From NCBI GenBank assembly GCA_000403315.2, contig KE159638.1:248001-312000 (forward strand): a stretch of 64,000 nt of DNA, read 5' to 3'. Both the position numbers and the translations under genes were made by a program. The notes beneath the pieces are model-generated. The model made no database searches. It worked only from the letters and a program-made list of their open reading frames with translations, and was not told the origin of the DNA. The stretch is from Lachnospiraceae bacterium A2 (GTDB lineage Bacteria; Bacillota; Clostridia; Lachnospirales; Lachnospiraceae). Numbering within the stretch: the stretch's first letter is position 1; every line of letters begins with the position of its first letter. Shown here piece by piece: positions 3,045-24,325 of this stretch.

Positions 3045-3060
3045 GGCGGAAAGAGGAAAA

Positions 3061-5058
3061 ATGGAAAATCAGTTATGTTTTCAATGCTTTAAAATGAAGG
3101 GCAGTTACGGGGTATGCCCCCACTGCGGATACGAGGAAAACACAGGTGCGGCGCAGGCTTACCAGCTTGCGCCAGGAACCGTTTTGCGGGGCAGGTATAT
3201 CATAGGCGTCAGCATTGGGTTCGGGGGCTTCGGGATTACCTACAAGGCGTTTGATACCGTGCTCAGCATTGTTGTGGCAATCAAGGAGTTTTACCCGGCA
3301 GGCCTTGTAAACCGGGGAGAAGGGGAAGTAAAGGTAGGCATTTTTTCCGGGGAAAAGGAGGAGGAGTTTAAACGCCAGCTTAACCGTTTTCTGGAAGAAG
3401 CCAGAAATATGGCAATTTTCTCCAAGGAGAAGGATATCATCAATGTATTTGACTATTTTGAGGAAAACCAGACTGCCTATATCATTATGGAATATGTGGA
3501 CGCGCCTGTGCTAAAAGAGTGCCTGAAAGAAAAAGGCAGGTTCCGGGCAGAAGAAGCAGAAGGCTATATCGTAGCAATTTTGGATGCGCTGTCCAAGGTC
3601 CATAGCCACGGCATCATCCATAAGGACGTGAGCCCAGACAATATTTTTATCTTAGGGAAAACGTCAGTAAAGCTGTTTGACTTCGGAGCCGCCAAATTCC
3701 AGGGGACGGAAACAGAGCGGACCGAAGACGTGGTGGTAAAAGCGGGATATACCCCGCCAGAGCAGTACCGCTCTAAAAATGAGCAGGGGGCATTTATGGA
3801 TATTTATGCCGCCGGGGCAGTGCTCTATGAAATGGTGACCGGGGAAAAGCCAATGGAAGCCCCGGACCGTTCCGTAGAGGACGCCTTAAAACGCCCCAGT
3901 GAGTTTGGGGTTGAAATAGAAGAACAGATGGAGCGCGTGATTTTAAAAGCCTTAGCCCTGGAGCCAAAGCTGCGGTTCCAGGCTGCAGGGCAGATGAAAG
4001 AAGCAATCATCAGCAGGAAAAAGGTGGAGCTCCCCGAAGAAGAAATAAAAAAGTACCAGAAAAAAAAGAAAATGCTTGCAGCAGGGATGGCGGCGGCGTT
4101 TGCTGTGGCAGGCGGTATGTTCCTGTTAAGCCAGACTTATTTTTCTGGCAGAGGGAAAATTGACGTGGCAAAATTACCAGAACAGGACTTGGAAATCTGG
4201 ATTTCCAGTGAAGATGCATCTGCGGGGGAAGGGCTTTCGGAGGTGCTTTTGGAGAGCGTAGAAAAAGAGTGCCCCCAGTTAAATGTTACGGTGCAGGTGG
4301 TTGACGAGAGGGACTACGGGGAAAAAATACAGCAGGCGGCGAAGGACGGGGAATTGCCAGACGTATTCTGTACAGACGGCATCCAGGCTTCGGATTACTG
4401 CGCAGACCTTTCCAAGCTGCTCAATACCATGGAATTGTCCGGTTACCTGCATTTAGATGGGCTGGGCAGGAAAGGGGTCTATGAACTTCCCACTGCCATG
4501 CAGGTTGCAGTGGTTTATATCAATGAGGAAAAGGAAGCGGAACTGCCGGAATCCCTGGAACAGGATTCCTTGCCGGGACAAGGGGAGCTTCTGGGCTATG
4601 CAGAAGACGCAGAAGCGTTTATGGCATTTCAGGATATGGACCTTTCCGTTTCACGGATTGCCGGGGATTTGTCAGATATGGACCTGATAAAAGAAGTGAC
4701 TGTGGATGTAATACCGCCCACGGATTTTGCCGTTGTCCCCATTTTAAAAGATGGCAACCTGATTGGGACTATGGAACGCCCTTATGGCGTCAGCAAGGCC
4801 GGGAGCCGTTCCCGGCAGGAGGCCGGGATGTTCCTGTTATCCCTTTTGTTAAGTGACGGGGCGCAGAGCGCAGCTTATATGGGAAATGAGGAAGGGATTC
4901 CTTTAAACCGTACGGTTTTAAGCAATTATCAGGAAACGAAAATGACTACATATCTGGATTTTTTAAAGGGCTTTGATTTGGAAAAAGCAGAACTTTATGA
5001 GGGCGGCAGCATATGCAGGATACTTCAGGAGGAAGCCGGGGCGTCTAAGGAAAAGTAG
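3061..5058 (+). CDS. membrane Ser/Thr kinase with extracellular solute-binding-protein-like domain
   Basis: This is a 665-residue Hanks-type kinase. ATG 3061 is chosen because AAAGAGG precedes it. A zinc ribbon sits at the N-terminus (C6, C9, C19, C22), followed by the kinase domain (about 43-300) with Gly loop GFGGFGITY, VAIKEF lysine, catalytic loop HKDVSPDN and DFGAAK. The usual HRD arginine is Lys here. A single membrane helix lies at about 337-357. The outside part (about 370-660) begins LEIWISSEDASAGEG and resembles a family-1 extracellular solute-binding protein. That layout suggests a receptor kinase that binds a small ligand outside the cell and phosphorylates cytosolic partners. Ligand unknown. 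The neighbouring kinases, PP2C and FHA genes fit a phospho-signalling locus. Confidence 0.88.
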   Translation: MENQLCFQCFKMKGSYGVCPHCGYEENTGAAQAYQLAPGTVLRGRYIIGVSIGFGGFGITYKAFDTVLSIVVAIKEFYPAGLVNRGEGEVKVGIFSGEKEEEFKRQLNRFLEEARNMAIFSKEKDIINVFDYFEENQTAYIIMEYVDAPVLKECLKEKGRFRAEEAEGYIVAILDALSKVHSHGIIHKDVSPDNIFILGKTSVKLFDFGAAKFQGTETERTEDVVVKAGYTPPEQYRSKNEQGAFMDIYAAGAVLYEMVTGEKPMEAPDRSVEDALKRPSEFGVEIEEQMERVILKALALEPKLRFQAAGQMKEAIISRKKVELPEEEIKKYQKKKKMLAAGMAAAFAVAGGMFLLSQTYFSGRGKIDVAKLPEQDLEIWISSEDASAGEGLSEVLLESVEKECPQLNVTVQVVDERDYGEKIQQAAKDGELPDVFCTDGIQASDYCADLSKLLNTMELSGYLHLDGLGRKGVYELPTAMQVAVVYINEEKEAELPESLEQDSLPGQGELLGYAEDAEAFMAFQDMDLSVSRIAGDLSDMDLIKEVTVDVIPPTDFAVVPILKDGNLIGTMERPYGVSKAGSRSRQEAGMFLLSLLLSDGAQSAAYMGNEEGIPLNRTVLSNYQETKMTTYLDFLKGFDLEKAELYEGGSICRILQEEAGASKEK

Positions 5059-5115
5059 GATGCAGGCGTTACACTGGGCATCTTTGCGGGAATGGAAAAT
5101 AGGAGGGAACAGGAA

Positions 5116-7371
5116 ATGGTAAGATGTTTTGGCTGCATGGAGGAAATTCCAGAGGGGGAGGAAATTTGCCGGCATTGCGGCTACCAGAAAGGGACGGATG
5201 TCAAAGAAGCTTATTACCTGCTGCCCGGGAAAATAATAGGCGGAAAATATTTGATAGGCAAAGTGCTGGGATACGGCGGGTTTGGCGTAACTTATATTGG
5301 CTGGGACACAACGCTGAACCGGAAAGTGGCAGTGAAGGAATACCTGCCCAGTGATTTTGCTACCAGAAGCTATGGGACGGAATTACTGACGGTATTTTCC
5401 GGGGAAGCTACGGTGCAGTTTGAAGCAGGGCTCAGCAGCTTTATTTCCGAAGCAAAGCGGCTGGCAAAGTTCAACCGGATTCCGGAAATTGTAGATATTT
5501 ATGACTGCTTTATGGAAAATGGCACAGGCTACATTATTATGGAGTTTTTAGAAGGGGTGACAGTCAAGGAAATCTTGAAGGAGCAGGAACGCATCCCGGT
5601 AGAAGAAGCCCGCCGGATTGCCATGGCGGTGCTGCGGGGGCTTTCGGAGGTACATAAAGAAGGGATTATCCACAGGGATATTGCGCCGGATAATATTTTC
5701 ATCAACCAAAAGGGGGAGGTAAAGCTTTTGGATTTTGGCGCGGCGCGGTATGCCACGGCAGTCCAGTCCAGAAGCCTTTCCGTGGTTTTAAAGCCGGGGT
5801 ATGCGCCGGAAGAACAGTACCGGAGCAGGGGCGAGCAGGGCCCGTGGACGGATGTGTATGCCATGGGGGCAACCCTTTACCGGATGGTAACAGGAATCCG
5901 GCCAGAAGAAGCCATAGAGCGCATGGTGGAGGATAACCTAAAGCCGCCTTCTGCCCTGGGCATAGCCATAGAGCCAAATACGGAAACTGCCCTGATGAAC
6001 AGCTTGAATGTCAGGAAAGAATTCAGGACGAAGGATGCAGAAACTTTTTATAAGGAGCTGGGCAGCGATGTAAAAGTGGAGCGTGTGGTAGAGGAAAAAA
6101 CTGTAAAAGAGGACTTGAAAATCCCCCCATGGATGCGGTGGGGAGCTGCCGCGGCAGGGGTGCTTTTGTGCCTTTGCGTCGGACTGTTTGCCACAGGGAA
6201 AATAAGCTTTACCAAAAAGCAGATTGACAGTGCAGGGGGTGCGGAAGCCTTAAAGGAAGGGGAGTGCTATGTGCCCAATATTTCCGGGATGAGTTATGAA
6301 GAAGCGGAGAAAGCACTAAAGGAAAAGAACCTGACGGTACTTATCAATGGGATGAACTACAGCGAAAGCATAGAAAAAAATAAAATTCTGAGCCAGACCC
6401 CAAAGGATGGGGAAAAAACCATGGCAGAGGAAACCGTATATGTCATTATGAGCGGCGGCAGCCAGGAAGTGATGATGCCAGACCTATCTGGAATGGAATA
6501 TGAAGAAGCAAAAGAATTGATTGCCGCCCAGAACCTTGTGCTGAAAAAAGATGGGGTAACGGAAGAATATAACGATGTTGTGGAAAAAGGGAGAATCATT
6601 GCCCAGAACATTGAGCCGGAAGAACGGATTAAGGTGCAGACAGAAATCACCCTTACGGTTTCGCTGGGCAGCCTTTCCACAGAAACGGCAGTCCTGGCCG
6701 TGCCAGACGTCAGGGGCATGACAAAGGATGAAGCTGTGGCCTGCCTTACCCAGTTGAAGGAATCCACAGGCTTCACCTATTCCTTGGGGAAAGTGAAGAA
6801 GAAATTCAGCAGTGAAGTGGAAAAAGGGAGAATTATCAGCCAGGGGTTAGAGCCAGGGAGCGAGGTGCGCACCAATGAGCCGCTGACCCTTGTGATTAGC
6901 AAAGGGCCGCAGATGGTACAAGTGCCGGAAGTGGTATATCTGCCGAAGGAAGATGCAGTGAAGAAACTGGAAGAAGCAGGGCTTGCCGTAGAGATACAGG
7001 AGGAATACAGTTCCAAGGTTTCCAAAGGGCTTGTGATCAGCCAGAGCCAGGAAGCAGATACGAAGGTTGGGAAAGGCACGGCTGTTACTATAAGCGTCAG
7101 CCTTGGGGAAGAACCAGAGAAAACGGATTCCAACAATTCAAATTCCAATACAAATAAAACACCATCTTCCCAAAAACAGCCCAATCCAACACAGCAAATA
7201 CCAGAGCCGCCCCAGCCGGAGCCGCCCGCACCCCAGCCAGAACCGCCTGCACCCCAGCCGGAACCGCCTGCGCCCCAGCCGGAGCCGAAGCCAGAGCCAG
7301 AAGGGAAGGTTGTGGAAGACAGTGGCGGCGGTGTTGTGGAGGATGACAATAATAATGTGGTTTCAGACTGA
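5116..7371 (+). CDS. membrane Ser/Thr kinase with four PASTA repeats
   Basis: This is a 751-residue PrkC/Stk-like kinase. ATG 5116 is preferred over the in-frame ATG at 5092 because AGGAGG lies 9 nt before it. Order: zinc ribbon (C4, C7, C17, C20), kinase domain with GYGGFGVTY, VAVKEY, IIHRDIAPDN and DFGAAR, one membrane helix at about 341-362, then four PASTA-like repeats (about 385-667; openings YVPNISGM, MMPDLSGM, AVPDVRGM, VQVPEVVYL). The tail is Pro/Gln/Glu-rich (QPEPPAP repeats) and then acidic. PASTA domains in this family bind muropeptides or beta-lactams, so the extracellular signal is probably peptidoglycan. The zinc ribbon ahead of the kinase is not part of classical PrkC. Confidence 0.92.
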   Translation: MVRCFGCMEEIPEGEEICRHCGYQKGTDVKEAYYLLPGKIIGGKYLIGKVLGYGGFGVTYIGWDTTLNRKVAVKEYLPSDFATRSYGTELLTVFSGEATVQFEAGLSSFISEAKRLAKFNRIPEIVDIYDCFMENGTGYIIMEFLEGVTVKEILKEQERIPVEEARRIAMAVLRGLSEVHKEGIIHRDIAPDNIFINQKGEVKLLDFGAARYATAVQSRSLSVVLKPGYAPEEQYRSRGEQGPWTDVYAMGATLYRMVTGIRPEEAIERMVEDNLKPPSALGIAIEPNTETALMNSLNVRKEFRTKDAETFYKELGSDVKVERVVEEKTVKEDLKIPPWMRWGAAAAGVLLCLCVGLFATGKISFTKKQIDSAGGAEALKEGECYVPNISGMSYEEAEKALKEKNLTVLINGMNYSESIEKNKILSQTPKDGEKTMAEETVYVIMSGGSQEVMMPDLSGMEYEEAKELIAAQNLVLKKDGVTEEYNDVVEKGRIIAQNIEPEERIKVQTEITLTVSLGSLSTETAVLAVPDVRGMTKDEAVACLTQLKESTGFTYSLGKVKKKFSSEVEKGRIISQGLEPGSEVRTNEPLTLVISKGPQMVQVPEVVYLPKEDAVKKLEEAGLAVEIQEEYSSKVSKGLVISQSQEADTKVGKGTAVTISVSLGEEPEKTDSNNSNSNTNKTPSSQKQPNPTQQIPEPPQPEPPAPQPEPPAPQPEPPAPQPEPKPEPEGKVVEDSGGGVVEDDNNNVVSD
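7213..7290 (+). repeat. 21-bp Pro-Glu-Pro coding repeats
   Basis: Degenerate tandem units of about 21 bp (CAGCCGGAGCCGCCCGCACC and variants) encode the QPEPPAP repeats in the kinase tail. The unit is a multiple of three, so copy number can vary without frameshift. Confidence 0.7.
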
Positions 7372-7393
7372 TACAGAAACGGAGGGTAAGACC

Positions 7394-8122
7394 ATGGTTA
7401 CATACGAAATTTTGTCAGACCCGGGCGAACGGGAATACAACGAGGATTATGCTGGCGTCAGCCAAAACGGGGGCTCTTTCTGCTTTGTCCTTGCAGACGG
7501 CCTGGGGGGCCACGGCGGTGGGGACGAAGCATCCCGTATGGTAGCTGAGCATATTTTAAAGGATTTTGAAGCGCAGGGGGAAGTATCAGAAGCATACATA
7601 AAAAGATGCTTTGAAGAAAGCCAGGAGCTTCTCGTAGCAGAACAGGAAAAGCAGAACCGAGCCTTTGAGATGAAGACGACCTTAGTGGTGCTCCTTACAG
7701 ACGGGCATACCATGCGGTGGGGCCATATCGGGGACTCCCGGCTGTATTTTTACAAAAATAAAAAGCTAAAGCAGCGCACCCTGGACCACAGCGTACCCCA
7801 GATGCTGGTAGCCGCAGGGGAGATTAAGGAAGAAGAAATCCGCGGCCATGCAGACAGGAACCGCCTGCTCCGGGTTATGGGCTCGGAATGGGACCATCCC
7901 CGTTACCAGCTTGCAGCCCCAGTGGAGTGTACGGGGCAGGAATCCTTCTTGCTGTGCTCTGACGGCTTCTGGGAATGGATCGAAGAAAAGCCTATGCAGT
8001 CTGCCTTGAAAAGGGCAGGCACCCCAAGGGAATGGATGGCACAGATGCAGAAGGAAGTATTGAAAAACGGCACAGGGAAAGGGATGGACAATTATTCTGC
8101 CATTGCAGTATTTGTAGAGTGA
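7394..8122 (+). CDS. PP2C-family Ser/Thr phosphatase
   Basis: This 242-residue soluble phosphatase is read from ATG 7394 after GGAGGGTAAG, 22 nt past the PASTA kinase stop. PP2C metal-binding motifs are visible: REYNEDYAG, ADGLGGHGGG, GHIGDSRLYFY, LLCSDGFWEWI and the final DNYSAIAVFVE. The family removes phosphate from Ser/Thr using two Mn or Mg ions. Pairing with the preceding kinase mirrors prpC-prkC in other Firmicutes, but here the phosphatase follows the kinase. It probably resets phosphorylation of the kinases and FHA partners in this operon. Confidence 0.93.
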   Translation: MVTYEILSDPGEREYNEDYAGVSQNGGSFCFVLADGLGGHGGGDEASRMVAEHILKDFEAQGEVSEAYIKRCFEESQELLVAEQEKQNRAFEMKTTLVVLLTDGHTMRWGHIGDSRLYFYKNKKLKQRTLDHSVPQMLVAAGEIKEEEIRGHADRNRLLRVMGSEWDHPRYQLAAPVECTGQESFLLCSDGFWEWIEEKPMQSALKRAGTPREWMAQMQKEVLKNGTGKGMDNYSAIAVFVE

Positions 8123-8179
8123 AGCTCAGGAAAAACCCAGAATTAACGGTACTTAAAGATTAGGGTTTAGAAGGATTAT

Positions 8180-8202
8180 CCTGTAATTCGTATCGTTACA
8201 GG
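8180..8202 (+). promoter_or_regulatory. hairpin immediately before the FHA gene RBS
   Basis: CCTGTAA (8180-8186) pairs with TTACAGG (8196-8202) around a 9-nt loop, directly before the GGAGGGAGG Shine-Dalgarno of the gene at 8219. It could influence translation or processing within the operon. The pairing is seen; the role is inference. Confidence 0.4.
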
Positions 8203-8218
8203 TGGAGGGAGGAACGAA

Positions 8219-8815
8219 ATGGCAATCGTACAATGCCAAAATGGTCATTATTATGACAATGAAAAATTTAACGGCTGCCCGCACTGCGCTGCTTTAGCAG
8301 AAGGCGGCCCACAGCAGGATTCTGTGACGGTGGCTCTGGCGCAGGAAGCGCGGCAGGTGGAAAATTACGCGGTAGAATACTTAAAGCGTACCGCCCCGCA
8401 GCAGGCTCCAGCCCCGGCAGCGGTGCAGAGGGACATGGAAAAGACGGTAAGCCTGTATGAAAAAGAAGGCGTTTCCGAATGCATTGCAGGCTGGCTTGTA
8501 TGTACCGAAGGGGAAGAATACGGCAAAGGGTTCCCTCTGTATGCAGGGTTTAACCGCATTGGCAGGAGCCGCAGCAATGACATTGTGCTGACGGACCCGC
8601 ATGTGTCACGGGAGGAACACTGTTCTGTCATTTACGAAGAAAAAAGGAATGTTTTTTACCTGTTCCCGAAAGACGGCAACCTTGTATATGCAGGGGAAGG
8701 GCTGGTAGAGCAGGCGCAGCAGATTACGGAAGGGCAGGACATTACAATAGGGGAAACCCATTTGGAATTTGTGCCATACTGCAAGGGAGAGAAAAAATGG
8801 GAAAAAAAGAAATAA
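8219..8815 (+). CDS. zinc-ribbon-like FHA-domain protein
   Basis: This 198-residue soluble protein starts with a possible metal-binding knuckle (CQNGHYYDNEKFNGCPHC), followed by a linker and an FHA domain at about 90-185 with NRIGRSRSNDIVL and VSREEHCSV. FHA domains bind phosphothreonine peptides, so this is a likely reader of the neighbouring kinases. A short element before the FHA, EKTVSLYEKE, recurs almost unchanged in the FHA protein at 12910, and its Thr is a plausible phosphosite. The gene has a strong GGAGGGAGG RBS and overlaps the next gene by 19 nt. Confidence 0.88.
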   Translation: MAIVQCQNGHYYDNEKFNGCPHCAALAEGGPQQDSVTVALAQEARQVENYAVEYLKRTAPQQAPAPAAVQRDMEKTVSLYEKEGVSECIAGWLVCTEGEEYGKGFPLYAGFNRIGRSRSNDIVLTDPHVSREEHCSVIYEEKRNVFYLFPKDGNLVYAGEGLVEQAQQITEGQDITIGETHLEFVPYCKGEKKWEKKK

Positions 8816-10656
8816 AAAACAGTTATTTGGGGCAGCCGCCCACAATCCTGCACCGCGCGCCCCTATGCCGAAAGACAGGCACAAACCCGCTATTCCACCA
8901 CTTGCCGTTTGGCTTATGCCAAATAGTTTGTGAAGGCAAGGTACTCTATAGACAACTTTTTCTGCTGATGGCATGCCTGTGGCTGGGCAGTGGGCTGCAG
9001 GCAGCGGCAGCAGGAATAGATACCCAGATTGGGGATGTCAGGATCGAAGGGGCGGCAGCCAACATGCCCGAAATGAACATTTACTGTTATCCCGGCCAGC
9101 CAGAACTTTTGGAAGGGGTAAGCGTTACATATGGGAAAGAGGAGCTGATGGCGGGGCAGGCCATCCCCTTTGCTCAGACAGAAGCCGGTACGGACTATTT
9201 TATTCTGCTGGATGTTTCCGCTTCGGTCAGCCCGGATTATTTTGCCCAGATGAAGGAAAGCATTCTGGATTTCTGGCGGAACATGGGGGCAAAGGATAAG
9301 CTTTCCCTGATTACGTTTGGGGATGCGGTGACGGTGGTGTTCCAGGGCCAGACGGCGGCGGATGACATTTCCGGGGCAGTCAATGGCCTGCAGAACACAG
9401 ACCAGACTACCTGCCTGTTTGAAGCCATTGAAAAAACGGCAAAGCTTGCAGACACCAAGGAAGAAGCCGGCGTCCGCAAGGTTGCATTGGCAATGACGGA
9501 CGGGGAGGATTTTTCAGAAAATACATCGACGAAAGAAGAAGCCCTTGCCACGTTAAAGGAAAAAATGATCCCCCTTTACGCCATGGCGGCAAAGGAGGAT
9601 AAGCAGGGCGGGGAAAACCCGTATTTAGACAGCATGGGGGCCTTTGTCCGGGAATCCGGCGGCATAATGGAAGTGTTTGACGCAGGGAGCGCAGTCCTGA
9701 AAATGCAGGGGCTGCACCAGACGTTCCAGGAAGCCTTTATGATACCGGCGCGGGCAAGGACGAATGTGGTGAACCATAAGAAAAAAGCCCTGACTGTCAC
9801 ATTTTCCGATGGGAAAGCAAAAACTTCTGATTTTATAGCGTCTTATTACCAGGAGGACACAGACCCGCCCGTCGCTTCCATAAAACAGAATTCCAAACAT
9901 TCCCTGAAAATAAATTTCAGCGAGCCGGTAAAAGGCGCAAACAAGGTGGACGCTTATGAAATCAAGCATGAGGACGCCCGGATTACGGACGGGTATATGG
10001 TGCGCTATGACAAGGAAAAGGCCACTGCAGTCCTTACGTTTGAAGAAGACCTCCTGAAAGGGAAATATGAAATAAAATTCCGTGGGATAACAGACGATTC
10101 CATGGAAAAAAATGAATTGGAAAAACGGTGCAGCATTAAGGTGAAAAAAGGGAGGAAGCTGGGCGTTTCGGATTATCTGGAACAGTATCAGGTTTTCCTT
10201 GCAGGGGCGGTTATCCTGATTGTGCTGCTGTCTGCCGGGGCAATCCTATGGCACAGGGTAAAGAAGCAAAAAGGGATTGTCACCATTGAGGGAAGGGCGG
10301 TGCTCCAGTCCAATGTAGAGAGAAAACACCATGTGCAGGTACAGAAAAAACAAATCCCAAGGAGGCAAATCCAATTTTGCCTGGAAGGGGTGCAGGGCAC
10401 AGGGCGGCAGCTTACGGTGGATATTGCAGGGAGCATTATTGTAGGGCGTTCGGGGAACTGCGATGTTTCCATTGAGGATGACAGGATGTCCCGCCAGCAT
10501 TTTGCCATTGCAGAGAGTAACGGCATGTTTACCATCGAAGATTTGCATACCACCAATGGGACCTGGGTGAACGGGAGGAAAATTTCCGGGCAGAGCCCAT
10601 TGGCGCCCGGGGACAGGATACAGGCTGGGGACATTGCAATGACGGTGAGGTGGTAA
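8797..10656 (+). CDS. membrane vWA-FHA protein
   Basis: This 619-residue protein overlaps the previous gene by 19 nt. From ATG 8797 about 50 residues precede a hydrophobic export segment (LYRQLFLLMACLWLGSG), so the start is uncertain, but no better RBS-start pair is visible. The extracytoplasmic part has a von Willebrand A domain (about 125-300) with a MIDAS-like DVSAS, a Thr-containing QTTCLFEAI stretch and AMTDGED. An Ig-like module (about 345-450) follows, then a membrane helix at about 463-485 and a cytosolic FHA domain (about 540-615; IIVGRSGNCDVSI, MSRQHFAI, TNGTWVNG). It could link an external metal-dependent binding event to phosphothreonine recognition inside. Confidence 0.87.
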   Translation: MGKKEIKNSYLGQPPTILHRAPLCRKTGTNPLFHHLPFGLCQIVCEGKVLYRQLFLLMACLWLGSGLQAAAAGIDTQIGDVRIEGAAANMPEMNIYCYPGQPELLEGVSVTYGKEELMAGQAIPFAQTEAGTDYFILLDVSASVSPDYFAQMKESILDFWRNMGAKDKLSLITFGDAVTVVFQGQTAADDISGAVNGLQNTDQTTCLFEAIEKTAKLADTKEEAGVRKVALAMTDGEDFSENTSTKEEALATLKEKMIPLYAMAAKEDKQGGENPYLDSMGAFVRESGGIMEVFDAGSAVLKMQGLHQTFQEAFMIPARARTNVVNHKKKALTVTFSDGKAKTSDFIASYYQEDTDPPVASIKQNSKHSLKINFSEPVKGANKVDAYEIKHEDARITDGYMVRYDKEKATAVLTFEEDLLKGKYEIKFRGITDDSMEKNELEKRCSIKVKKGRKLGVSDYLEQYQVFLAGAVILIVLLSAGAILWHRVKKQKGIVTIEGRAVLQSNVERKHHVQVQKKQIPRRQIQFCLEGVQGTGRQLTVDIAGSIIVGRSGNCDVSIEDDRMSRQHFAIAESNGMFTIEDLHTTNGTWVNGRKISGQSPLAPGDRIQAGDIAMTVRW

Positions 10657-10660
10657 GGCT

Positions 10661-12019
10661 ATGAAAAATGAATATAGATGCCCCAATTGTTTTCAGGGGG
10701 ATATCGGCACAGGGAGGTGCACCCGCTGCGGGTTCAGCAGGCAGGAGGAAAAGCAAAACCCCATGCGGCTGCCGGAACTGTCCTTCCTGGGGAACCGTTA
10801 CCTGATTGGGCGGATTTTAGGGTACGGGGGGTTTGGGATTACTTACAAGGCATTTGACGTGCTGAACCAATGCGTCTGCGCAGTGAAGGAATTTGTGCCC
10901 ATTGGCGTTGTAGCAAGGCAGGGGGACGGGATGCAGGTTACCGTAACTTCCAAATCCAATTTAGAGGATTTTGAGCACGGGAAACGGCGTTTCATGGAGG
11001 AAGCAGAAGTCCTGAAAAAGCTGACGGATGTGCCGGAAGTGGTGCAGGTAATGGACTACTTTATGCTGAACAACACGGCCTATTTTGTTATGGAATATAT
11101 TGAAGGGGCAACCTTAAAGCAATTGATGAAAAGCTACGGCGGGAGGATCCCGCTATTTAATGCAGTGTCCATGATCTACCGTGCAGGGATGGCCTTAGAC
11201 CAGGTCCACCGGCGGGGAGGGATTTTCCACAGGGACATCAGCCCGGACAATATTATGGTCACGGCGGATAACCGGGTAAAGCTCATTGACTTTGGCAATG
11301 CCAAGCACATCATTGGGAAAAGGAGCCAGACCCTCTCTGTGATCTTAAAACATGGGTATGCGCCGCCGGAACAGTATTCCAGCGCCAGCAGCCAGGGGAG
11401 CTATACGGACGTCTATTCCCTGGCAGTCACCTTTTACTATGTGGCAACGGGCATTATGGTGCCTAACGCCCCAGACCGTTTTGGCGGGGAGGAGTACCGG
11501 CCGCTGCTGGAATTATGCCCGCAGGCTGGCGCCCAACTATCAGAAGCAGTGGACCGTGCGCTGGTATTAAACAGCAAAAATAGGACAAGTTCTGTGGCAG
11601 AGTTTTTATATGCGTTTTACCTGCAGCTTGGAAAGGCGGCAGCTTACCCGGATTCCACAGACGGAAGCGGGATGCCGGCACAGGGCGGGCAGGCAGCGCC
11701 GATAAAGGCTTACCTGAAACTGGCGGGGGACGGAGGCCCCTCCTGGAGCCTTCCGGAAAATAAGCAAGTAATGATTGGCCGTTCCAGCAATTGGGCTGAT
11801 ATTGTCCCCACCAACAACAGGCAGGTCAGCAAAGAGCATTGCAAGCTGTTCTGGGACAGCCTGGAAAGACGCTTTTACCTTACGGACTGCTCTGCCAATG
11901 GTACTTTTATTGGAAATGAAAGGCTGAAAAAGGGGGAAACTTATATCCTCCCAAACGGCGGGCAATTTTCCCTTGTGAACCATATCTGCAATTTGGAAGT
12001 GAGGTGGGAAAATGGCTGA
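10661..12019 (+). CDS. soluble Ser/Thr kinase with C-terminal FHA domain
   Basis: This 452-residue kinase begins 4 nt after the vWA-FHA stop. A zinc ribbon (C7, C10, C20, C23) leads into a kinase domain (about 40-305) with GYGGFGITY, CAVKEF, IFHRDISPDN and DFGNAK, then a FHA domain (about 365-440; VMIGRSSNWADI, VSKEHC, SANGTFIG). No membrane helix is seen, so it should act in the cytosol. A kinase that carries its own phosphothreonine reader may dock on substrates already phosphorylated by the two membrane kinases, or bind its own phosphorylated loop. This is the third kinase of the locus. Confidence 0.92.
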   Translation: MKNEYRCPNCFQGDIGTGRCTRCGFSRQEEKQNPMRLPELSFLGNRYLIGRILGYGGFGITYKAFDVLNQCVCAVKEFVPIGVVARQGDGMQVTVTSKSNLEDFEHGKRRFMEEAEVLKKLTDVPEVVQVMDYFMLNNTAYFVMEYIEGATLKQLMKSYGGRIPLFNAVSMIYRAGMALDQVHRRGGIFHRDISPDNIMVTADNRVKLIDFGNAKHIIGKRSQTLSVILKHGYAPPEQYSSASSQGSYTDVYSLAVTFYYVATGIMVPNAPDRFGGEEYRPLLELCPQAGAQLSEAVDRALVLNSKNRTSSVAEFLYAFYLQLGKAAAYPDSTDGSGMPAQGGQAAPIKAYLKLAGDGGPSWSLPENKQVMIGRSSNWADIVPTNNRQVSKEHCKLFWDSLERRFYLTDCSANGTFIGNERLKKGETYILPNGGQFSLVNHICNLEVRWENG

Positions 12020-12929
12020 AATGGAAAAAGACATTGTAACCCTCCGGTTAAAGCCCCAGGACACAGCAAAACCGGGGCTGGTTCCCCAAAACATGGAAGG
12101 GCCGGAAATGGAAATTGAAATCGGTACCTCCAGCATTATCGGGACCAGAAGGAACCAGGAGGACACAATATTTGGATACGGCTCCGGCAGGGAAGCCATT
12201 GCCTTGGTCTGCGACGGCATGGGAGGGCTTTCCGGCGGGGAAATTGCAAGCAAGGCTGCGGCAGAAAGCTTGGCGGATGCATGGTTTGGCCGGCAGGGGA
12301 ATGTGGATATCCCGGAATTTTTAGAAGAAGAAGCATTGCGGGCAGACGAAAAGGTATTCCAGCAGAAAAATGAAAAAGGGGAACGGCTCCGGGCAGGGAC
12401 TACGATTGCGGCGGCAATTATCCGGGGAAACGAACTGTATTGGCTGTCAGTAGGGGACAGCAAAATTTATATTATCCGGGGGAATGAAATCCTGTCTGTG
12501 TGCAGGGAGCATAATTACAGGCTGACTTTGGACCAGCAGCTCGTGCAGGGGGAACTGACGCCAGAGGAATATGCTGCGGAGGAGTACCGGGCAGAAGCCT
12601 TAATCAGCTATCTTGGCATGGGGAATATGTCGCTGATGGACTTAAACCGGCGGCCGTTCCTGCTGGAAGACGGCGACATCATCCTGCTAAGCAGCGACGG
12701 GCTTTACAGGAGCCTTACGGAAGAAGAAATTTTGTGCCTGGTAAAGGAGTTTGGCGGGAACATGCAGGAAACGGCAGACTTACTGACTTCGGCAGCCCTG
12801 GGAACAAAACAGTCCGGGCAGGACAATACCTCCGTGGTATTGCTGCGCTACCGCCTGAATGGCAGGAACGGGCAGCGGAACAGAATAAAAAATATGGGAG
12901 GGATACAGGATGAATTTAAAAAGATGTGA
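12012..12929 (+). CDS. second PP2C-family phosphatase
   Basis: This 305-residue phosphatase overlaps the kinase-FHA gene by 8 nt, which suggests translational coupling. PP2C motifs: TRRNQEDTIF, LVCDGMGGLSGGEIAS, YWLSVGDSKIYII, LLSSDGLYRSLTEEE and GQDNTSVVLL. It has about 40 extra N-terminal residues (VTLRLKPQDTAKPG...) compared with the first PP2C, possibly a docking or phosphorylated segment. It is probably the dedicated antagonist of the kinase-FHA protein. Confidence 0.93.
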   Translation: MAEMEKDIVTLRLKPQDTAKPGLVPQNMEGPEMEIEIGTSSIIGTRRNQEDTIFGYGSGREAIALVCDGMGGLSGGEIASKAAAESLADAWFGRQGNVDIPEFLEEEALRADEKVFQQKNEKGERLRAGTTIAAAIIRGNELYWLSVGDSKIYIIRGNEILSVCREHNYRLTLDQQLVQGELTPEEYAAEEYRAEALISYLGMGNMSLMDLNRRPFLLEDGDIILLSSDGLYRSLTEEEILCLVKEFGGNMQETADLLTSAALGTKQSGQDNTSVVLLRYRLNGRNGQRNRIKNMGGIQDEFKKM

Positions 12930-13611
12930 AAATGGGCATTTTTACGATGGGGACAAGTTCCAGTTATGCCCCCATTGCGCAGCGGCAGGAGGCGGGCAGC
13001 AGCAGGCTACCATGCCTTATACCGAAAATAACAGCAGTTATAACACGGCGATGACAGAGCCGGTCACCATGCCGATGTACGCCCCGCAGGAGCAGCCGGC
13101 AGCAGGGGGCTACCCTGTGCAGCCCCAGATGGTGGAGCCGCAGGCCGGGAACATTTCCCTGCAGGATGCCGTGAGCAGGGCAATTACCGCCCCTGCCCCC
13201 ATGCAGCAGGACGAGGAGAAAACCGTAAGCCTTTACCAGTACCAGCACAAAGCGGACCCGGTAGCGGGGTGGCTGGTATGCATTGAAGGGACGGAGTTCG
13301 GCAGCAGCTTTACGGTGAAAAGCGGCAGGAACTTCATTGGCAGGGCGTCCCATATGGATATCGTCCTGCGGGGGGACAACAGCATTTCCCGGGAAAAACA
13401 TGCCATTATCCTCTATGAGCCAAAGCGCAGGGAATTTATCGCCCAGGCAGGCGAATCCAGGGAATTATTTTACTTAAACGACGAGGTTGTGCTGAACCCG
13501 GTACGGTTAAAACAGCATGACATCCTGACAATTGGGAATACCCGCCTGATGTTTTTCCCCTGCTGCGGGGAGAATTTCAGTTGGGACGATTTCAAGAAAG
13601 ATGAGGAGTAA
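12910..13611 (+). CDS. second zinc-ribbon-like FHA protein
   Basis: This 233-residue relative of the gene at 8219 overlaps the PP2C by 20 nt. It opens with the same kind of knuckle (CENGHFYDGDKFQLCPHC), has a Gln/Pro/Met-rich linker, the shared EEKTVSLYQYQ element, and an FHA domain at about 125-215 (NFIGRASHMDIVL, SISREKHAII). The shared start motif suggests duplication of an adaptor that bridges phosphoproteins through the FHA domain and another partner through the metal knuckle. Metal binding is inferred from the C/H spacing. Confidence 0.88.
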   Translation: MNLKRCENGHFYDGDKFQLCPHCAAAGGGQQQATMPYTENNSSYNTAMTEPVTMPMYAPQEQPAAGGYPVQPQMVEPQAGNISLQDAVSRAITAPAPMQQDEEKTVSLYQYQHKADPVAGWLVCIEGTEFGSSFTVKSGRNFIGRASHMDIVLRGDNSISREKHAIILYEPKRREFIAQAGESRELFYLNDEVVLNPVRLKQHDILTIGNTRLMFFPCCGENFSWDDFKKDEE

Positions 13612-13613
13612 GG

Positions 13614-14801
13614 ATGGGAAACTTAAAGACAAACAGGAGCGTTGGGCTCTATGTGGCGCTGACAGCCATTATGAATTTCCTGCCGGTGGTTTTGGTTGTT
13701 GTAATTGGGAAACGGCTGGCATCCGGGAGCGGCAATTTACTGTCTGCTGCCCTGGGGCTTGGGGGCGGCTTGAAGGATATGCTGGCGGACATTATGGTTA
13801 TTCTGGCTGTGGCATGGATTTTTATAATTGTTTACTGCATCTATCTGCTTGTACTGTTCTGGGGCGTCTGCCGGGATATGAATGTCATCTGCCAGAAATA
13901 CAGCTTAGGCGCCACCATGAACTATATTTTCGTTATGCTGCTTTCGGCTGTTACCCTGAATATTTATTATATTTTCTGGTCGAACCAGCAGGGGAACCGG
14001 CTGAAAGAAGCAGAAGGGTGCTACCAAAGGCAGGTAAAGGGGACAGGGACGTCCCATATGGTGTTTGCGCTGTTGGGGTCAGTCCCGGTGTGGGGCATGG
14101 TTTTTTTTGTATATAAAGTACAGTCAGACCCCCTCTATTTTATGGCTCATCCGCTGTTTACCATAGTGGTGTCTTTCATAGGCTTTGTCCTTGGGTTTAT
14201 GGACTTAGTGAACCGGGCGTATTTTATCAGGGACGTCAATACCCTTGCAGAAGCATACAATGGGCAGGGGGCTGGCTATGCATCAGGCGGGTATCAGGGC
14301 AAGGCGGCAGGAAATGCCATGCAGCAAGGCGGCTGCCCCCAAAGCCCCGCAGGGGACAGTATGCAGCCAGAGGGCTATTCCCAGGACCCGGCAGGGAGCG
14401 CCATGTACAATGGCGGGCCGGAGGGATATACCATGCCAGTCAACGAATGGATGCCGGACGCAGCCGAAGCGTGGAAGCCTGCGGATACCGGGGCACAGGC
14501 AGGGGCTTTGGTAGGACGCAAGGGGGAATACCAGGGGGCATCCATCCCAGTAGAGGGGGAACTGGCTATTGGCAGGGATGGGACAAGCTGCCAGGTGGTA
14601 ATTAAAAAACCGGATATCAGCAGGAAACACTGCACCATCCGTTACAACCCGGGCAATGGCGTTTATACCGTAACGGACTGCTCATCCAACGGCGTTTTTG
14701 ACAGGGAGGGGAATCCCTTCCCGAAAAATGTCCCAGTTGCCTGCAGCTCTGGCACGGTCCTTATCATTGCAAAAAGCGGGAATGAATTCCTGCTTCAATA
14801 A
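13614..14801 (+). CDS. DUF4234-like membrane protein with cytosolic FHA domain
   Basis: This 395-residue protein begins 2 nt after the previous stop. The N-terminal 210 residues hold about five hydrophobic helices. The segment GATMNYIFVMLLSAVTLNIY followed by YIFWSNQQGNR resembles DUF4234. A Gly/Gln/Met/Pro-rich linker (about 215-290) with repeated QG and YSQDP units leads to a C-terminal FHA domain (about 300-395; LAIGRDGTSCQVVI, DISRKHCTI, SSNGVFD). It probably recruits phosphorylated partners to the membrane. DUF4234 has no known biochemical activity. Confidence 0.85.
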   Translation: MGNLKTNRSVGLYVALTAIMNFLPVVLVVVIGKRLASGSGNLLSAALGLGGGLKDMLADIMVILAVAWIFIIVYCIYLLVLFWGVCRDMNVICQKYSLGATMNYIFVMLLSAVTLNIYYIFWSNQQGNRLKEAEGCYQRQVKGTGTSHMVFALLGSVPVWGMVFFVYKVQSDPLYFMAHPLFTIVVSFIGFVLGFMDLVNRAYFIRDVNTLAEAYNGQGAGYASGGYQGKAAGNAMQQGGCPQSPAGDSMQPEGYSQDPAGSAMYNGGPEGYTMPVNEWMPDAAEAWKPADTGAQAGALVGRKGEYQGASIPVEGELAIGRDGTSCQVVIKKPDISRKHCTIRYNPGNGVYTVTDCSSNGVFDREGNPFPKNVPVACSSGTVLIIAKSGNEFLLQ

Positions 14802-14824
14802 CCAACAGAAAGATGGGGGATGGA

Positions 14825-17137
14825 ATGGAACAGAAGATAGGTCAGGTAAACAGGAAGCTTACCATCATGGACGGCGAAGGCAGGGTGCAGGAAATCTCCA
14901 TAGACGCCCTGCGCAAGGAACGGGTTTACTGGGGCAGGGATGCCGCCCGCAATGACATTGTGACAGCGTCGCCCGCGGTATCCCGGCTCCATGGCAAGTT
15001 TAAGCTTGCGCCGCAGGGGCTCCTGTTTGCCGATATTGGAAGCACCAACGGCACATTCTTGGAAAATGCAGCCGGAAAGCATTTGCTGCAGAAAACCAGC
15101 GGTTATGTCATCTTGAAGGATGGGGACATGCTGCGGGTGCAGCCGCCAAATGGGGAAATGGGGAATTCCGTCTTGCTGCTGTATACGGAAGCCATGCAGG
15201 AGGGGAAATGGCAGAAATTTGCGCTGCCTGCCCCGCGGATTGCTATTGGCCGTGGAAATGAAAATGACATTGTGTTGCAGCATATGGGGATTTCCAGAAA
15301 ACATGCGGTAATTGAGCAGAAAGGGGACGCCTATTTTATTTCAGACTGCCAGAGCACCAATGGGGTGCTTGTGAACGACAGCATACTGAATGGGGCCTGC
15401 AGGCTCAATGATAAAGATGTCGTCCGCATCCTGAACAGCGTTTTAATTTTTACCAATACAGGGATTTTCTATAAGAGTTCCCAGCAGGGGGTAAGCCTTC
15501 GGGTGCGGAACATGAACAAAGTGGTGGGGAAAGGCAAACAGATCCTCCATGACGTAAACGTAGATATAGACAGCAATGAATTTGTAGCAATTATCGGCGG
15601 TTCCGGCGCAGGGAAGTCCACGCTGATGAACGCAATCAGCGGATTTGACAAAAAACGGCAGGGGACCGTCCTCTTTTCCGGGCTGAATTTGGACGAAAAT
15701 TTCCCAGTCCTGAAAAGCCTTATTGGGTATGTGCCCCAGCAGGACATTATTTATGAAAACCTTACCTTGAACCGGATGCTGCTGTACACGGCAAAGCTAA
15801 AAATGCCCAAGGATACCTCAAAAGAGGAGATAGAAAAGAGAATCCGAGACGTCCTGGAAATGGTGGAGCTTTCCGAGCACCAGAATACATATATCCGAAA
15901 GCTTTCTGGCGGGCAGAAAAAGCGCGCCAGCATTGCCGTGGAGCTTTTGGCAGACCCCAGCCTGTTTTTCCTGGACGAGCCTACTTCCGGCTTAGACCCG
16001 GGAACCGAAAAGAAGCTGATGGGAACCTTAAGCCGTCTGGCAAAGTCCCAGGGGAAAACCATCATTATGGTAACCCATACCACCCAAAGCCTTGATTTGT
16101 GCGATAAAGTCATATTTATGGGACAGGGGGGAAGGGTCTGCTTCTGCGGCACATGCCAGGAAGCACAAATGTTTTTCGATACGGACAACCTGGTGGATAT
16201 TTATAACGAAATGGCAGCCCAGCCGCAGGAATGGGCGGCCCAGTACGCAGGATGCGTGCCCTTGGAGCCCATTGGCTTTGGGGAAGGGAAAGAAGCGCCA
16301 AAGAAGAAAAAATTCTCCGGCATCCGGCAGTTTTTCATTTTGACAATGCGCTATGCAGAGATTATGAAAAATGACCTGCCAAGGCTGGCGCTTTTATTCC
16401 TGCAGCCAGTCCTGATTGCGCTGCTTTTAGGGATTGTGGCGGACGACCGGGTATTTGAAATCTATGAGAGCACCAAGTCCATCCTGTTTGCCTTAAGCTG
16501 CGCAGGCATTTGGATTGGCCTGTTTAATTCCATCCAGGAAATCTGCAAGGAACGGGCAATCCTGAAGCGGGAATACATGGGGAACATGAAGCTGTGGTCT
16601 TATACCCTGTCAAAATTTGTCGTACAGACGGTTGTGGGCGTCCTGCAGGCATCCATTATTGTAGCGGTATTTGGTATAGCAGTGGGGATGCCGGAGAAAG
16701 GGATCCTTTTGAAAAACAGCTTCCCGGAAATGTTTGTGACAGTCTGGCTTACCATCACGGCATCCATGGCCCTTGGGTTTATCATATCCGCTTTTGTAAA
16801 GAGCGGGGATAAGGCCATGGCATGCGCGCCCTTTGTACTGATTATCCAGCTCCTGTTTTCCGGCATCCTCTTTGAGCTTAAGGGAGCAGGCAGCAAAATT
16901 GCCTATGCGACCATCAGCAAATGGTCGGTGGAAAGCCTTGGGAGCATTGCCGATTTAAACAGCCTGACTATGAAAATGCAGGAGGAGCTGCCAGGGATTG
17001 AGCATGAGTTCCAGGAAATCTTTGAATTTGCCAAAAAGCACCTGCTGTCCAACTGGGCGGTACTGGCGGTAATGATAGCGATATGCTTTGCCATTACTAC
17101 GGTAATGCTGCGGAGCGTGGCAAAGGATGGAAGGTAA
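14825..17137 (+). CDS. FHA-FHA-ABC transporter (ATPase plus ABC2 permease)
   Basis: This is a 770-residue half transporter. ATG 14825 is preferred over ATG 14813 because GATGGGGGA fits as its RBS. Two FHA domains come first (about 20-110, with SRLHGKF and STNGTF; about 130-215, with IAIGRGNENDIVL and ISRKHAVI). Next is an ABC ATPase with GGSGAGKST, LSGGQKKR and FFLDEPTSGLD, and then an ABC2-type permease with about six helices (about 520-770). The order matches Mycobacterium tuberculosis Rv1747, whose FHA domains are bound and regulated by the kinase PknF. It is likely the transport output of this phospho-signalling locus; the cargo is unknown. Confidence 0.92.
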   Translation: MEQKIGQVNRKLTIMDGEGRVQEISIDALRKERVYWGRDAARNDIVTASPAVSRLHGKFKLAPQGLLFADIGSTNGTFLENAAGKHLLQKTSGYVILKDGDMLRVQPPNGEMGNSVLLLYTEAMQEGKWQKFALPAPRIAIGRGNENDIVLQHMGISRKHAVIEQKGDAYFISDCQSTNGVLVNDSILNGACRLNDKDVVRILNSVLIFTNTGIFYKSSQQGVSLRVRNMNKVVGKGKQILHDVNVDIDSNEFVAIIGGSGAGKSTLMNAISGFDKKRQGTVLFSGLNLDENFPVLKSLIGYVPQQDIIYENLTLNRMLLYTAKLKMPKDTSKEEIEKRIRDVLEMVELSEHQNTYIRKLSGGQKKRASIAVELLADPSLFFLDEPTSGLDPGTEKKLMGTLSRLAKSQGKTIIMVTHTTQSLDLCDKVIFMGQGGRVCFCGTCQEAQMFFDTDNLVDIYNEMAAQPQEWAAQYAGCVPLEPIGFGEGKEAPKKKKFSGIRQFFILTMRYAEIMKNDLPRLALLFLQPVLIALLLGIVADDRVFEIYESTKSILFALSCAGIWIGLFNSIQEICKERAILKREYMGNMKLWSYTLSKFVVQTVVGVLQASIIVAVFGIAVGMPEKGILLKNSFPEMFVTVWLTITASMALGFIISAFVKSGDKAMACAPFVLIIQLLFSGILFELKGAGSKIAYATISKWSVESLGSIADLNSLTMKMQEELPGIEHEFQEIFEFAKKHLLSNWAVLAVMIAICFAITTVMLRSVAKDGR

Positions 17138-17207: not shown

Positions 17208-18542
17208 ATGAAACAAAAATTATTGAAATGGGCAACAGCCTTAACTAGCTGCATTGTGCTTCTGCTATTTTGCGGAATCCATGTACAGGCGGCGGAGTAC
17301 AGTATCGGTACGAATGACAGTTGGGCAGAAGGGAGTACAGAAAAAGAGGGAATTGACTATCGGACATTTACGTTGCCAGCAGCAGGGAGGGTAACCGTAA
17401 CATACCAATCTTATATGTCAAATGGAAGATGCAATTTATATGACAAAGATTTGGTAACAAACTATAAGTATGTGAGAACGAGTGGAAGTACCACGGCTCC
17501 GGCTACAGAACAGTTTAGCATGGATTTGGAGGCAGGGGCATATAGTTTAAAATTATCAGGAGGATATTGGAATGCTGGTGATGATCCATCTAGTTACAGG
17601 GTAAAAGTTTCATTTGTACCTGCACACAATAATGAGAAAGAACCAAATGATGCATTTGAGTCAGCGATGCCACTGGCAAATGGAACATTAATAAAAGGGT
17701 TCCTTTCAGAGGATGACAGTATAGATTTTTACAGATTTTCCATAGGGGAAAGTGCAAATGTAAGAACCACAGTAAGCAGAGATACAATAGGGAGTTATAA
17801 ATTTTCAATCTGGAATTCAGACTTAATTGAAGTAGCTTCTTATACAACAAGCGAGCAGACAAAAGTATGGGAGGAATATCTGGCTCCCGGAACATACTAT
17901 ATAAAAATCAATAAAGATTGGGATGCTACAGGTACTTACATATTAAAATGGGAGGGATTTACTTACGTCAAGGTTATCCAGCTAAAAAAATCAGCCCTGA
18001 CACTGGAAAAAGGGAAATCCTACAGCCTTCTCCAGTCCATTACCCCGGCGAGCGCAAATAATAAGAACATAAAATGGACGTCCGACAATACCTCTGTGGC
18101 AAAAGTAGATTCCCATGGAAAAGTAACTGCTAAAGGGGTTGGGGCTGCCAATATCAAAGCCGCTGCCATGGATGGGAGCCAGGTTGAAGCCACCTGCCAG
18201 GTTGTGGTAAAGCCCGCAAAGACCCAGATCACAGCATGTAAGAAAACAAGGGACAGGAATGTCTATGTAAAAGTCAAAGCCCAGAAAAATGTGTCCGGCA
18301 TCCAGTTCCAGTTAAGCAGGGACAAAAAATTCAAAGGAAGGAAATCCTCCTATTATGCCGGGGCAACCGAAACAAAAGCAACAACGGCAGCCCTCAAAAA
18401 GAGCAAAACGTATTATTTCAGGGCAAGGATGTATATTGATTACGGCGGAAAACGGTACTATGGGGCTTGGAGCCAGGTTAAGAAAGTAAAGACTGGGAAA
18501 AAGAGCAGGCTGTCGGGGAGCTCTTCTTGGAAAGCAGTATAA
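17208..18542 (+). CDS. secreted PPC/Big2 domain protein
   Basis: This is a 444-residue exported protein. ATG 17208 is chosen because AAGGAAGGGAAAG precedes it and a clear signal peptide follows (MKQKLLKWATALTSCIVLLL..., cut near VQA). Two PPC-like beta domains (about 30-120 and 145-245; NEKEPNDAFESA then DSIDFYRF) lead to a Big2 domain (about 255-335) and a basic Fn3-like end (about 340-430). PPC and Big2 modules are non-catalytic wall or carbohydrate-associated units. Its Big2/Fn3 pair resembles the end of the protein at 144, so similar surface proteins flank the kinase-FHA-ABC operon. It may be cargo, substrate or ligand of the system; that is inference. Confidence 0.85.
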   Translation: MKQKLLKWATALTSCIVLLLFCGIHVQAAEYSIGTNDSWAEGSTEKEGIDYRTFTLPAAGRVTVTYQSYMSNGRCNLYDKDLVTNYKYVRTSGSTTAPATEQFSMDLEAGAYSLKLSGGYWNAGDDPSSYRVKVSFVPAHNNEKEPNDAFESAMPLANGTLIKGFLSEDDSIDFYRFSIGESANVRTTVSRDTIGSYKFSIWNSDLIEVASYTTSEQTKVWEEYLAPGTYYIKINKDWDATGTYILKWEGFTYVKVIQLKKSALTLEKGKSYSLLQSITPASANNKNIKWTSDNTSVAKVDSHGKVTAKGVGAANIKAAAMDGSQVEATCQVVVKPAKTQITACKKTRDRNVYVKVKAQKNVSGIQFQLSRDKKFKGRKSSYYAGATETKATTAALKKSKTYYFRARMYIDYGGKRYYGAWSQVKKVKTGKKSRLSGSSSWKAV

Positions 18543-21036: not shown

Positions 21037-21039
21037 AAA

Positions 21040-21759: not shown

Positions 21760-21767
21760 GGGAGGAA

Positions 21768-23264: not shown

Positions 23265-23290
23265 AGGCAAAAGAGGAAGGAGAAAAGAAT

Positions 23291-24265: not shown

Positions 24266-24325
24266 AGGGCTCCGCCCTGTCCATGGCGTTGCCTGATATA
24301 TGCTTTAGAAAGGAAAGAATGAAAG

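Follow-up and report, generated by a model that had tools for sequence, protein, structure and literature searches.

What kind of system is encoded by a run of Hanks-type kinase, PP2C phosphatase and FHA genes in the genome of Lachnospiraceae bacterium A2? The run lies in a 64,000-nt stretch, positions 248001-312000 of contig KE159638.1 (G000:C3; genome G000 of 5.2 Mb, 93% complete), which is called the window below and is numbered from its first nucleotide. Ten co-directional genes occupy window positions 3061-17137: three Hanks-type kinases (K1, K2 and K3, the last with a further FHA domain), two PP2C phosphatases and five FHA proteins that are not kinases, and the coordinates and Pfam content agree with the count made in a preliminary description of this DNA. 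Two of the FHA proteins start with a zinc-ribbon-like motif (ZnFHA A and B), one carries a vWA domain (vWA-FHA), one has multiple transmembrane (TM) segments, and one is an FHA-FHA-ABC half-transporter. We propose that the operon is probably a stand-alone, modular cell-surface phosphothreonine signalling system, the defining parts of which appear to be PpkA-like receptor kinases, ZnFHA, vWA-FHA and multi-TM-FHA proteins and two PP2C phosphatases. The proposal is drawn from the domains encoded, the conservation of the neighbourhood, catalytic and metal-site residues that are intact, mostly intact phosphothreonine contacts, a linker motif with its usual spacing, and topology signals. A literature search in open-licence papers returned no description of this operon, which is probably undescribed.

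To follow the operon through other genomes we used the vWA-FHA gene. It was present in 18 of 397 genomes of the family (E<=1e-12, own genome included), the other 17 each from a different genus, and was not found at the same threshold in G176, the sole same-genus genome listed. Phylum-wide it was detected in 3 of 398 genomes, own included, the other two giving partial matches that ended before the FHA domain. The distribution of vWA-FHA is patchy. Stretches of up to 20 kb fetched around the 17 other genes showed the same kinds of genes as the operon. For loci from named genomes, a profile of ZnFHA B was searched against genome contigs, and of 569 confirmed stretches the 80 best were used (L070-L149); 59 of these held vWA-FHA in the first gene selection. 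The closest named record among these best 80 was Petralouisia muris (Lachnospiraceae, L070), in which the entire operon is kept at 66-90% identity. The core or part of it was also seen on short contigs of metagenome-assembled genomes with Family XIII, Oscillospiraceae and Peptococcaceae in their record titles (names of these titles, not of GTDB).

The neighbourhood counts are centred on 72 non-redundant vWA-FHA genes from 68 loci, left from 83 after dropping open reading frames (ORFs) of at most 350 aa or at least 90% identical to one already kept; four loci count twice as they have two vWA-FHA genes each, and the split gene of L069 fell out. The domain models, which are not those of Pfam, were seeded with domains of the window and then extended with sequences from the fetched loci; TM segments were called by plain hydropathy. 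Results showed a PP2C gene within 10 kb of 71 of the 72 genes (at least two in 56), a kinase-FHA near 59, further kinases near 53 and an FHA protein with at least three predicted TM segments near 55. Nearly all genes neighbouring vWA-FHA (560/562) were on the same strand. The order of genes was kept as well, with ZnFHA directly before vWA-FHA in 49/72 cases and kinase-FHA directly after it in 51/72. ZnFHA was the bait for the 80 loci, so the 17 stretches drawn by vWA-FHA form the cleaner sample: one per other vWA-FHA genome (L024, L053-L068), 3.7 to 20 kb long, among them L024, which was cut around an ABC gene, L061, a 3.7-kb contig, and L068, a distant cluster of genome G107. In these, PP2C was found in 16, ZnFHA in 15, a kinase without FHA in 16, kinase-FHA in 9, multi-TM FHA in 12 and FHA-ABC in 1; a more distant transporter would escape such short stretches. 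The preliminary description had named as decisive against it the case that the neighbours are not conserved together in related genomes; around the 72 genes they are kept together. The operon is a conserved, recurrent phosphothreonine system of Clostridia, and of Lachnospiraceae above all.

Within its own genome the operon holds 7 of 8 FHA, 3 of 5 above-cut-off kinase and 2 of 5 PP2C matches. Because of this concentration, together with the recurrence of the gene set in other genomes, the clustering exceeds chance. The genome's sole FHA protein beyond the operon is encoded at L150:10054-11508 (G000:C5), and same-genus G176 has its counterpart in a similar neighbourhood (L153:9579-10871). In relatives, FHA genes were also found outside this operon, among the matches listed.

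Among solved structures, the kinases of the operon are most similar to PpkA of the type VI secretion system (T6SS) threonine pathway. In a comparison restricted to solved structures and made without a tree, PpkA was the best Protein Data Bank (PDB) match of K1 (142.7 bits vs. 113.1 for the next molecule), K2 (173.7 vs. 88.7) and K3 (134.5 vs. 86.6). Profiles of K1 and of the kinase-FHA proteins likewise matched PpkA best, with margins across kinases and profiles of approximately 30 to 110 bits. As a control we used a 710-aa kinase of PASTA-type length on contig C6, which adjoins a PP2C gene, is separate from the operon kinases and was taken as the genome's PrkC. This protein preferred StkP/PknB, and PpkA was outside its best 60 PDB matches. 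K2 scored 348.4 bits against the 450-bit cut-off of the PknB_PASTA equivalog NF033483 and is thus not placed with the PrkC/PknB PASTA kinases. The main catalytic residues and four Cys of K1 were invariant in 25 homologues, and the catalytic residues were also invariant in the kinase-FHA (K3) alignment.

What differs from operon to operon is the part of the kinases predicted outside the cell. The K1 ectodomain matched SBP_bac_8 with 26.0 bits, just under the cut-off of 27, and a relative in L065 scored 49.3 bits. From 145 kinases in 82 loci we obtained 90 distinct ectodomains (no TM segment was found in 27 kinases, and the other 28 were short or repeats). Among them were PASTA (24), RCC1 (11), SBP_8 (8), LRR_4 (6), WG (3), F5/8-C-like (3), Big_2 (3) and SBP_3 (2) domains. 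PpkA-like kinases with what appear to be exchangeable ectodomains (PASTA, solute-binding, RCC1, LRR, WG) are a defining feature of the operon. Two kinases with leucine-rich-repeat ectodomains (L066:10686-14066 and L066:16869-18977) have the layout of plant receptor kinases. Two PASTA proteins have a low-scoring kinase domain and are possibly pseudokinase sensors: L056:14380-16710 (Pkinase 27.5 bits, cut-off 31.7) and L058:4102-6321 (lower score, detected by the locus-built model only).

Both ZnFHA proteins start with a conserved C-x3-H...C-x2-C motif, followed by a linker of low conservation and then the FHA domain. Residues C6, H10, C20 and C23 of ZnFHA B were invariant in 13 sequences, which points to zinc binding by this N-terminus. 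The linker contains a Thr preceded by acidic residues and followed by V/I-S/G, found in 26/31 sequences of a first set (shuffle mean 2.3, maximum 8). The set was then extended to 121 ZnFHA, reduced to 103 at 70% identity, of which 98 had a recognised linker end. A strict motif, acidic-T-[VIML]-[SGA]-[FYIVL], was present in 72 of these 98 linkers (shuffle mean 1.5, maximum 6 in 500 shuffles), and in 62% a Thr stood at position -15, counted from the GWLV with which the FHA domain starts, as compared with 2-15% at other positions from -5 to -40. The linker Thr is thus a conserved candidate phosphosite resembling the GarA/OdhI switch, and would be a defining feature of the operon. As described in excerpts of PMC8546545, GarA and OdhI also have a phosphorylatable Thr motif, ETTS, ahead of the FHA domain. 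The ZnFHA differ from them in the motif itself (T-[V/I]-[S/G]), in the zinc-ribbon-like N-terminus, in their best PDB match (3gqs) and in the phosphothreonine pocket, which lacks the NG-loop Asn and mostly keeps the Arg and Ser. Across 406 FHA domains of the loci, the presumed phosphothreonine contacts Arg and Ser were present in 375 and 371, respectively, and the His in 392.

In the vWA-FHA proteins, a TM segment separates vWA and FHA in 71 of 71; the charge is more positive on the side of the FHA in 66 of them (mean +3.5 vs. -0.3), and a DxSxS motif occurs in 65. In an alignment of 47 homologues the metal-site residues D139, S141 and D235 and the FHA residues G550 and R551 were invariant, while S143 and T205 were conserved in at least 90%; the domain thus has the DxSxS, Thr and Asp of a vWA with a metal ion-dependent adhesion site (MIDAS). 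This suggests a transmembrane protein with a predicted topology of the MIDAS-vWA outside and the FHA inside. Inside the operon of L060 (G157), positions 1062-4949 encode a 1296-aa thermolysin-Big_2-vWA protein with a C-terminal FHA domain and two TM segments, apparently a protease outside the cell that is joined to a phosphothreonine reader in the cytoplasm. By this fusion the vWA side is independently suggested to be extracellular.

Against the PDB, the vWA-FHA profile matched ArnA (5a8i) best, then 8s05, and integrin alpha-M with a lower score. Entry 8s05 is named 'Conserved protein'; its chains match FHA and vWA separately, and it is presumably of ArnA/ArnB type. In the text excerpted from PMC6509490, the Sulfolobus proteins ArnA and ArnB, a zinc-finger FHA protein and a MIDAS-vWA protein, are a phosphorylation-dependent pair. 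Kinases belong to the Arn system as well, and the operon has genes for the same kinds of parts. In contrast to the Arn pair, with FHA and vWA on separate proteins, the operon has both in one transmembrane protein, and the motif of its ZnFHA is of CHCC type, as against the four Cys of the ArnA finger.

How these parts might work together can be outlined as follows, where linker phosphorylation, FHA binding, the direction of signalling and the outputs are what we infer from the genes. An outside ligand would act on membrane kinases through their exchangeable ectodomains, here solute-binding-like and PASTA. The receptor kinases and the soluble kinase-FHA K3 would then phosphorylate the conserved Thr of the ZnFHA linker, and a K3-type protein, where present, may amplify the signal. 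The phosphothreonine could be read by the FHA domain of the same ZnFHA, as in the closing switch of GarA/OdhI, or by that of a partner. At the membrane, complexes would assemble or come apart on vWA-FHA, on the multi-TM-FHA protein and, where present, on FHA-FHA-ABC, and vWA-FHA may pass the signal across the membrane to the outside metal-dependent binding domain, or in the reverse direction. The two PP2C phosphatases would reset the system. Flanking secreted Ig-type proteins (window positions 144-3044, and those of the long ORFs in L059, L060 and L063) are candidate extracellular partners.

Several observations weigh against this reading and have to be set beside it. A hydrophobic segment ahead of the vWA domain was present in only 52 of the 71 proteins, in which start codons were not curated. 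Kinase-FHA was absent from 8 of the 17 stretches drawn by vWA-FHA. ZnFHA, found within 10 kb of 70/72 vWA-FHA genes, owes this count partly to construction, as the 80 loci were fetched with it. The strict linker motif was missing in 26/98 sequences and is partly common by descent, an effect that shuffling leaves in place. The NG-loop Asn is part of the full phosphothreonine pocket. FHA domains of the ZnFHA class do not have this usual Asn, and Glu is commonest at its position (66/121); GarA-like self-binding may therefore fail, and the phosphothreonine may be read by another FHA protein of the operon. Finally, of the five entries that the ZnFHA profile matched in the PDB, the best was another FHA protein, 3gqs (E 2.5e-6). 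The other four (E 0.0019-0.0043) are GarA entries, two by entry name and two that we take to be GarA.

If the reading of a stand-alone surface signalling system is correct, it would reveal an entire undescribed signalling class in gut-type Clostridia, in which several outside signals converge by Thr phosphorylation on membrane effectors, outside secretion machines. It would also single out the linker Thr of ZnFHA as a candidate phosphosite, point to a candidate adhesin-type effector that spans the membrane, and connect the phosphorylation modules of T6SS and type VII secretion systems (T7SS) in evolution with stand-alone signalling. A bolder and quite speculative picture is that Clostridia, among them many gut and rumen inhabitants, may have a receptor-kinase network like those of animals or plants, in which a set of receptor kinases with interchangeable sensor parts (LRR, RCC1, PASTA, solute-binding) feeds one phosphothreonine code. 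Intracellular FHA domains would read this code and act across the membrane on an integrin-like surface MIDAS-vWA switch, inside-out or outside-in, with optional export and protease branches.

Kinase, PP2C and FHA genes are also known from secretion systems, and we examined whether the operon could serve for phosphorylation control in a secretion system, either with a T6SS-like threonine pathway or as a variant of T7SS, with the machine encoded elsewhere, an explanation that we regard as unlikely. The preliminary description had compared the locus with threonine-phosphorylation control in T6SS, and this likeness stands: the kinase/PP2C/FHA logic of PpkA-PppA-Fha is shared, and the operon kinases, but not the PrkC control, are closest to PpkA, which likewise has an extracellular vWA domain according to excerpts of PMC3224232. 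The operon differs in that vWA is fused to FHA and not to the kinase, and in the addition of ZnFHA and several receptor kinases; moreover, no T6SS structural genes were among the Pfam matches of the 20 ORFs at 102-27054, the part of the genome in which they were looked for. For Bacillota, excerpts of Garrett and Palmer (2024; PMC11217815) describe T7SSc and T7SSe with a kinase, a PPM phosphatase and vWA or FHA components, with one kinase per system as against the array of the operon, and with a TscE vWA described as cytoplasmic and without a TM segment.

The T7SS variant was examined further by a search for WXG100 (PF06013) in the 18 vWA-FHA genomes, own included, and in same-genus G176. Matches were found in 8 of these 19 genomes and not in the other 11, G000 among them; in just 2 of the 18 vWA-FHA genomes, the assemblies of which are fragmented, were they on the contig of vWA-FHA. 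None of the 8 FHA matches of G000 lies in a frame of EssC size (largest open frame 783 aa), although some T7SS ATPases have no FHA domain, as stated in the same excerpts of PMC11217815. An FtsK-type domain (EssC/EccC ATPase) was likewise absent from the 20 ORFs scanned at 102-27054, to which this search was confined. The long ORFs of the operons in G143 (L063), L059 and L060 encode Ig-type domains (in L060 scoring no higher than the cut-off), not FtsK. On the other side, a distant vWA-FHA of G107 sits inside a T7SS-like cluster, and shared ancestry of the modules is therefore likely; in G143 the operon core comes after WXG100 genes. The WXG100 search and the long-ORF scans of L059, L060 and L063 together disfavour a secretion-system module, even with the FtsK-type ATPase that the G107 cluster does have. 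This cluster (L151, G107:C12) comprises a 1517-aa FtsK/SpoIIIE-FHA ATPase, WXG100 genes, a PP2C, two FHA proteins, a kinase and the 518-aa vWA-FHA. In L152 (G143:C120:1265-2943 and 9716 on), five small WXG100-matching genes, one of them below the cut-off, lie ahead of the operon core, as does a gene for a trypsin-FHA protein (L152:4807-6291).

Slightly less probable again is an envelope exporter like Rv1747/PknF, turned on by phosphorylation and with the ABC transporter as its main output. The half-transporter of the window has two FHA domains, a nucleotide-binding domain (NBD) and an ABC2 membrane domain in one chain, which is the architecture of the kinase-regulated Rv1747 and, as there, adjoins a Hanks kinase (PMC3908365, in excerpts), and P. 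muris keeps a 90% identical ABC gene in the same position. However, FHA-ABC was found within 10 kb of only 19/72 vWA-FHA genes and in 1 of the 17 stretches, so the "ABC transporter output" of the preliminary description does not define the system, and the transporter is not a conserved partner of the kinase as the comparison with Rv1747/PknF would have it; the one-chain architecture of that comparison stands. In the family, FHA-FHA-ABC occurred in 13 of 150 genomes (E<=1e-60, own included). Of the 12 others, G040 alone had vWA-FHA in the same fetched stretch; among the remaining 11, nine had some kinase and five a PP2C. As FHA-ABC is mostly found without vWA-FHA and often with kinase or PP2C genes, several phosphorylation modules make use of this transporter family, and it is usually absent from the operon. 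Two-FHA frames of 775-782 aa were present on other contigs of G316 and G373, among the matches listed. These counts rule out the ABC transporter as operon core; it is an optional accessory, with export as a possible output of a branch. Of the suggested Clostridia envelope-sensing export system, the recurrence in Clostridia holds and envelope sensing is plausible for PASTA, while the term is too narrow for solute-binding, RCC1, LRR and WG ectodomains and export is not the core.

A stress or anti-phage cassette, kin to TerY-P, which we take as a candidate relative, or to kinase-based defence, is very improbable. PADLOC kinase models PD-T4-6 and mad6 match K1-K3, its PP2C model matches PP2C A, and actinobacterial conflict systems have a kinase-PP2C-vWA neighbourhood (PMC7159879, excerpts), but the matches were confined to kinase, phosphatase and ATPase domains, with none for the two ZnFHA, vWA-FHA or DUF4234-FHA, so that no known anti-phage kinase system was detected with all its components; such a cassette is at odds with the receptor ectodomains and the surface vWA, and the operon's Pfam matches included no restriction or effector domains.

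The features of the locus are collected in Table 1. From K2 onward the genes are tightly packed, as had been noted before: with the starts used here the junctions are +22, +96, overlap 19, +4, overlap 8, overlap 20, +2 and +11 nt, and 7 of 8 are thus overlaps or gaps under 25 nt. K1 and K2 are 33 nt apart. Cys-rich, zinc-ribbon-like starts were read from the sequence of K1, K2, K3, ZnFHA A and ZnFHA B.

Table 1. Features of the operon and its flanks in window coordinates. Domains were assigned with Pfam above curated cut-offs, except for the solute-binding-like ectodomain of K1.
Feature	Position	Strand	Basis or remark
Secreted DUF6273/Big_2/fn3 protein	144..3044	+	Pfam; K1 begins 17 nt past its end
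K1: zinc-ribbon-like N-terminus, Hanks kinase of active type, one TM segment, ectodomain resembling a solute-binding protein	3061..5058	+	Pfam; SBP_bac_8 below cut-off
K2: zinc-ribbon-like N-terminus, kinase, TM, four PASTA, Pro-rich tail	5092..7371	+	Pfam
PP2C phosphatase A	7394..8122	+	PF13672 50.4 bits, cut-off 24
ZnFHA A: zinc-ribbon-like motif at N-terminus, linker, FHA at C-terminus	8219..8815	+	Pfam, sequence
ZnFHA A Thr76 codon, linker motif EKTVSLY, predicted phosphosite	8444..8446	+	Motif statistics
vWA-FHA: signal/TM (predicted), vWA with MIDAS on the outside, Ig/CopC-like stretch scoring below cut-off, TM, FHA in the cytoplasm	8797..10656	+	
K3: zinc-ribbon-like N-terminus, soluble kinase, C-terminal FHA	10661..12019	+	Pfam
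PP2C phosphatase B	12012..12929	+	PF13672 45.3 bits, PF00481 41.5 bits
ZnFHA B	12910..13611	+	Pfam, alignment
ZnFHA B Thr105 codon, motif EKTVSLY	13222..13224	+	Thr invariant in 13/13 aligned
Multi-TM DUF4234-FHA protein	13614..14801	+	DUF4234 27.2 bits (cut-off 25.3), FHA 44.7 bits
FHA-FHA-ABC half-transporter (NBD ABC_tran + ABC2_membrane), accessory	14813..17137	+	Pfam
Secreted Big_2 protein, 3' of operon	17208..18542	+	Pfam

The co-directional block reaches past the operon on both sides, to the two secreted Ig-type proteins. An ORF related to the upstream one sits right 5' of K1 in L070, L071 and L075, and this protein is a possible operon member or extracellular partner. Counterparts of the downstream Big_2 protein follow the operon in L070 (75% identity) and L071 (51%), which makes it another possible member. 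Further downstream, at 20371-25501, small proteins of membrane or secreted type are encoded in a row on the same strand, and four of them have zinc-ribbon-like N-termini. A pattern scan gave 33 promoter-like sites vs. 23.5 expected and 28 terminator-like sites vs. 25.3 expected, and no tRNA was found in the window, which, like the patchy distribution of vWA-FHA, was noted with regard to a possible mobile-element origin. A response-regulator-like family, of LytTR type by eye, was seen in 26 of the 80 loci L070-L149. The sole Rfam match at the gathering threshold was a T-box leader at 32352-32550 (111.5 bits).

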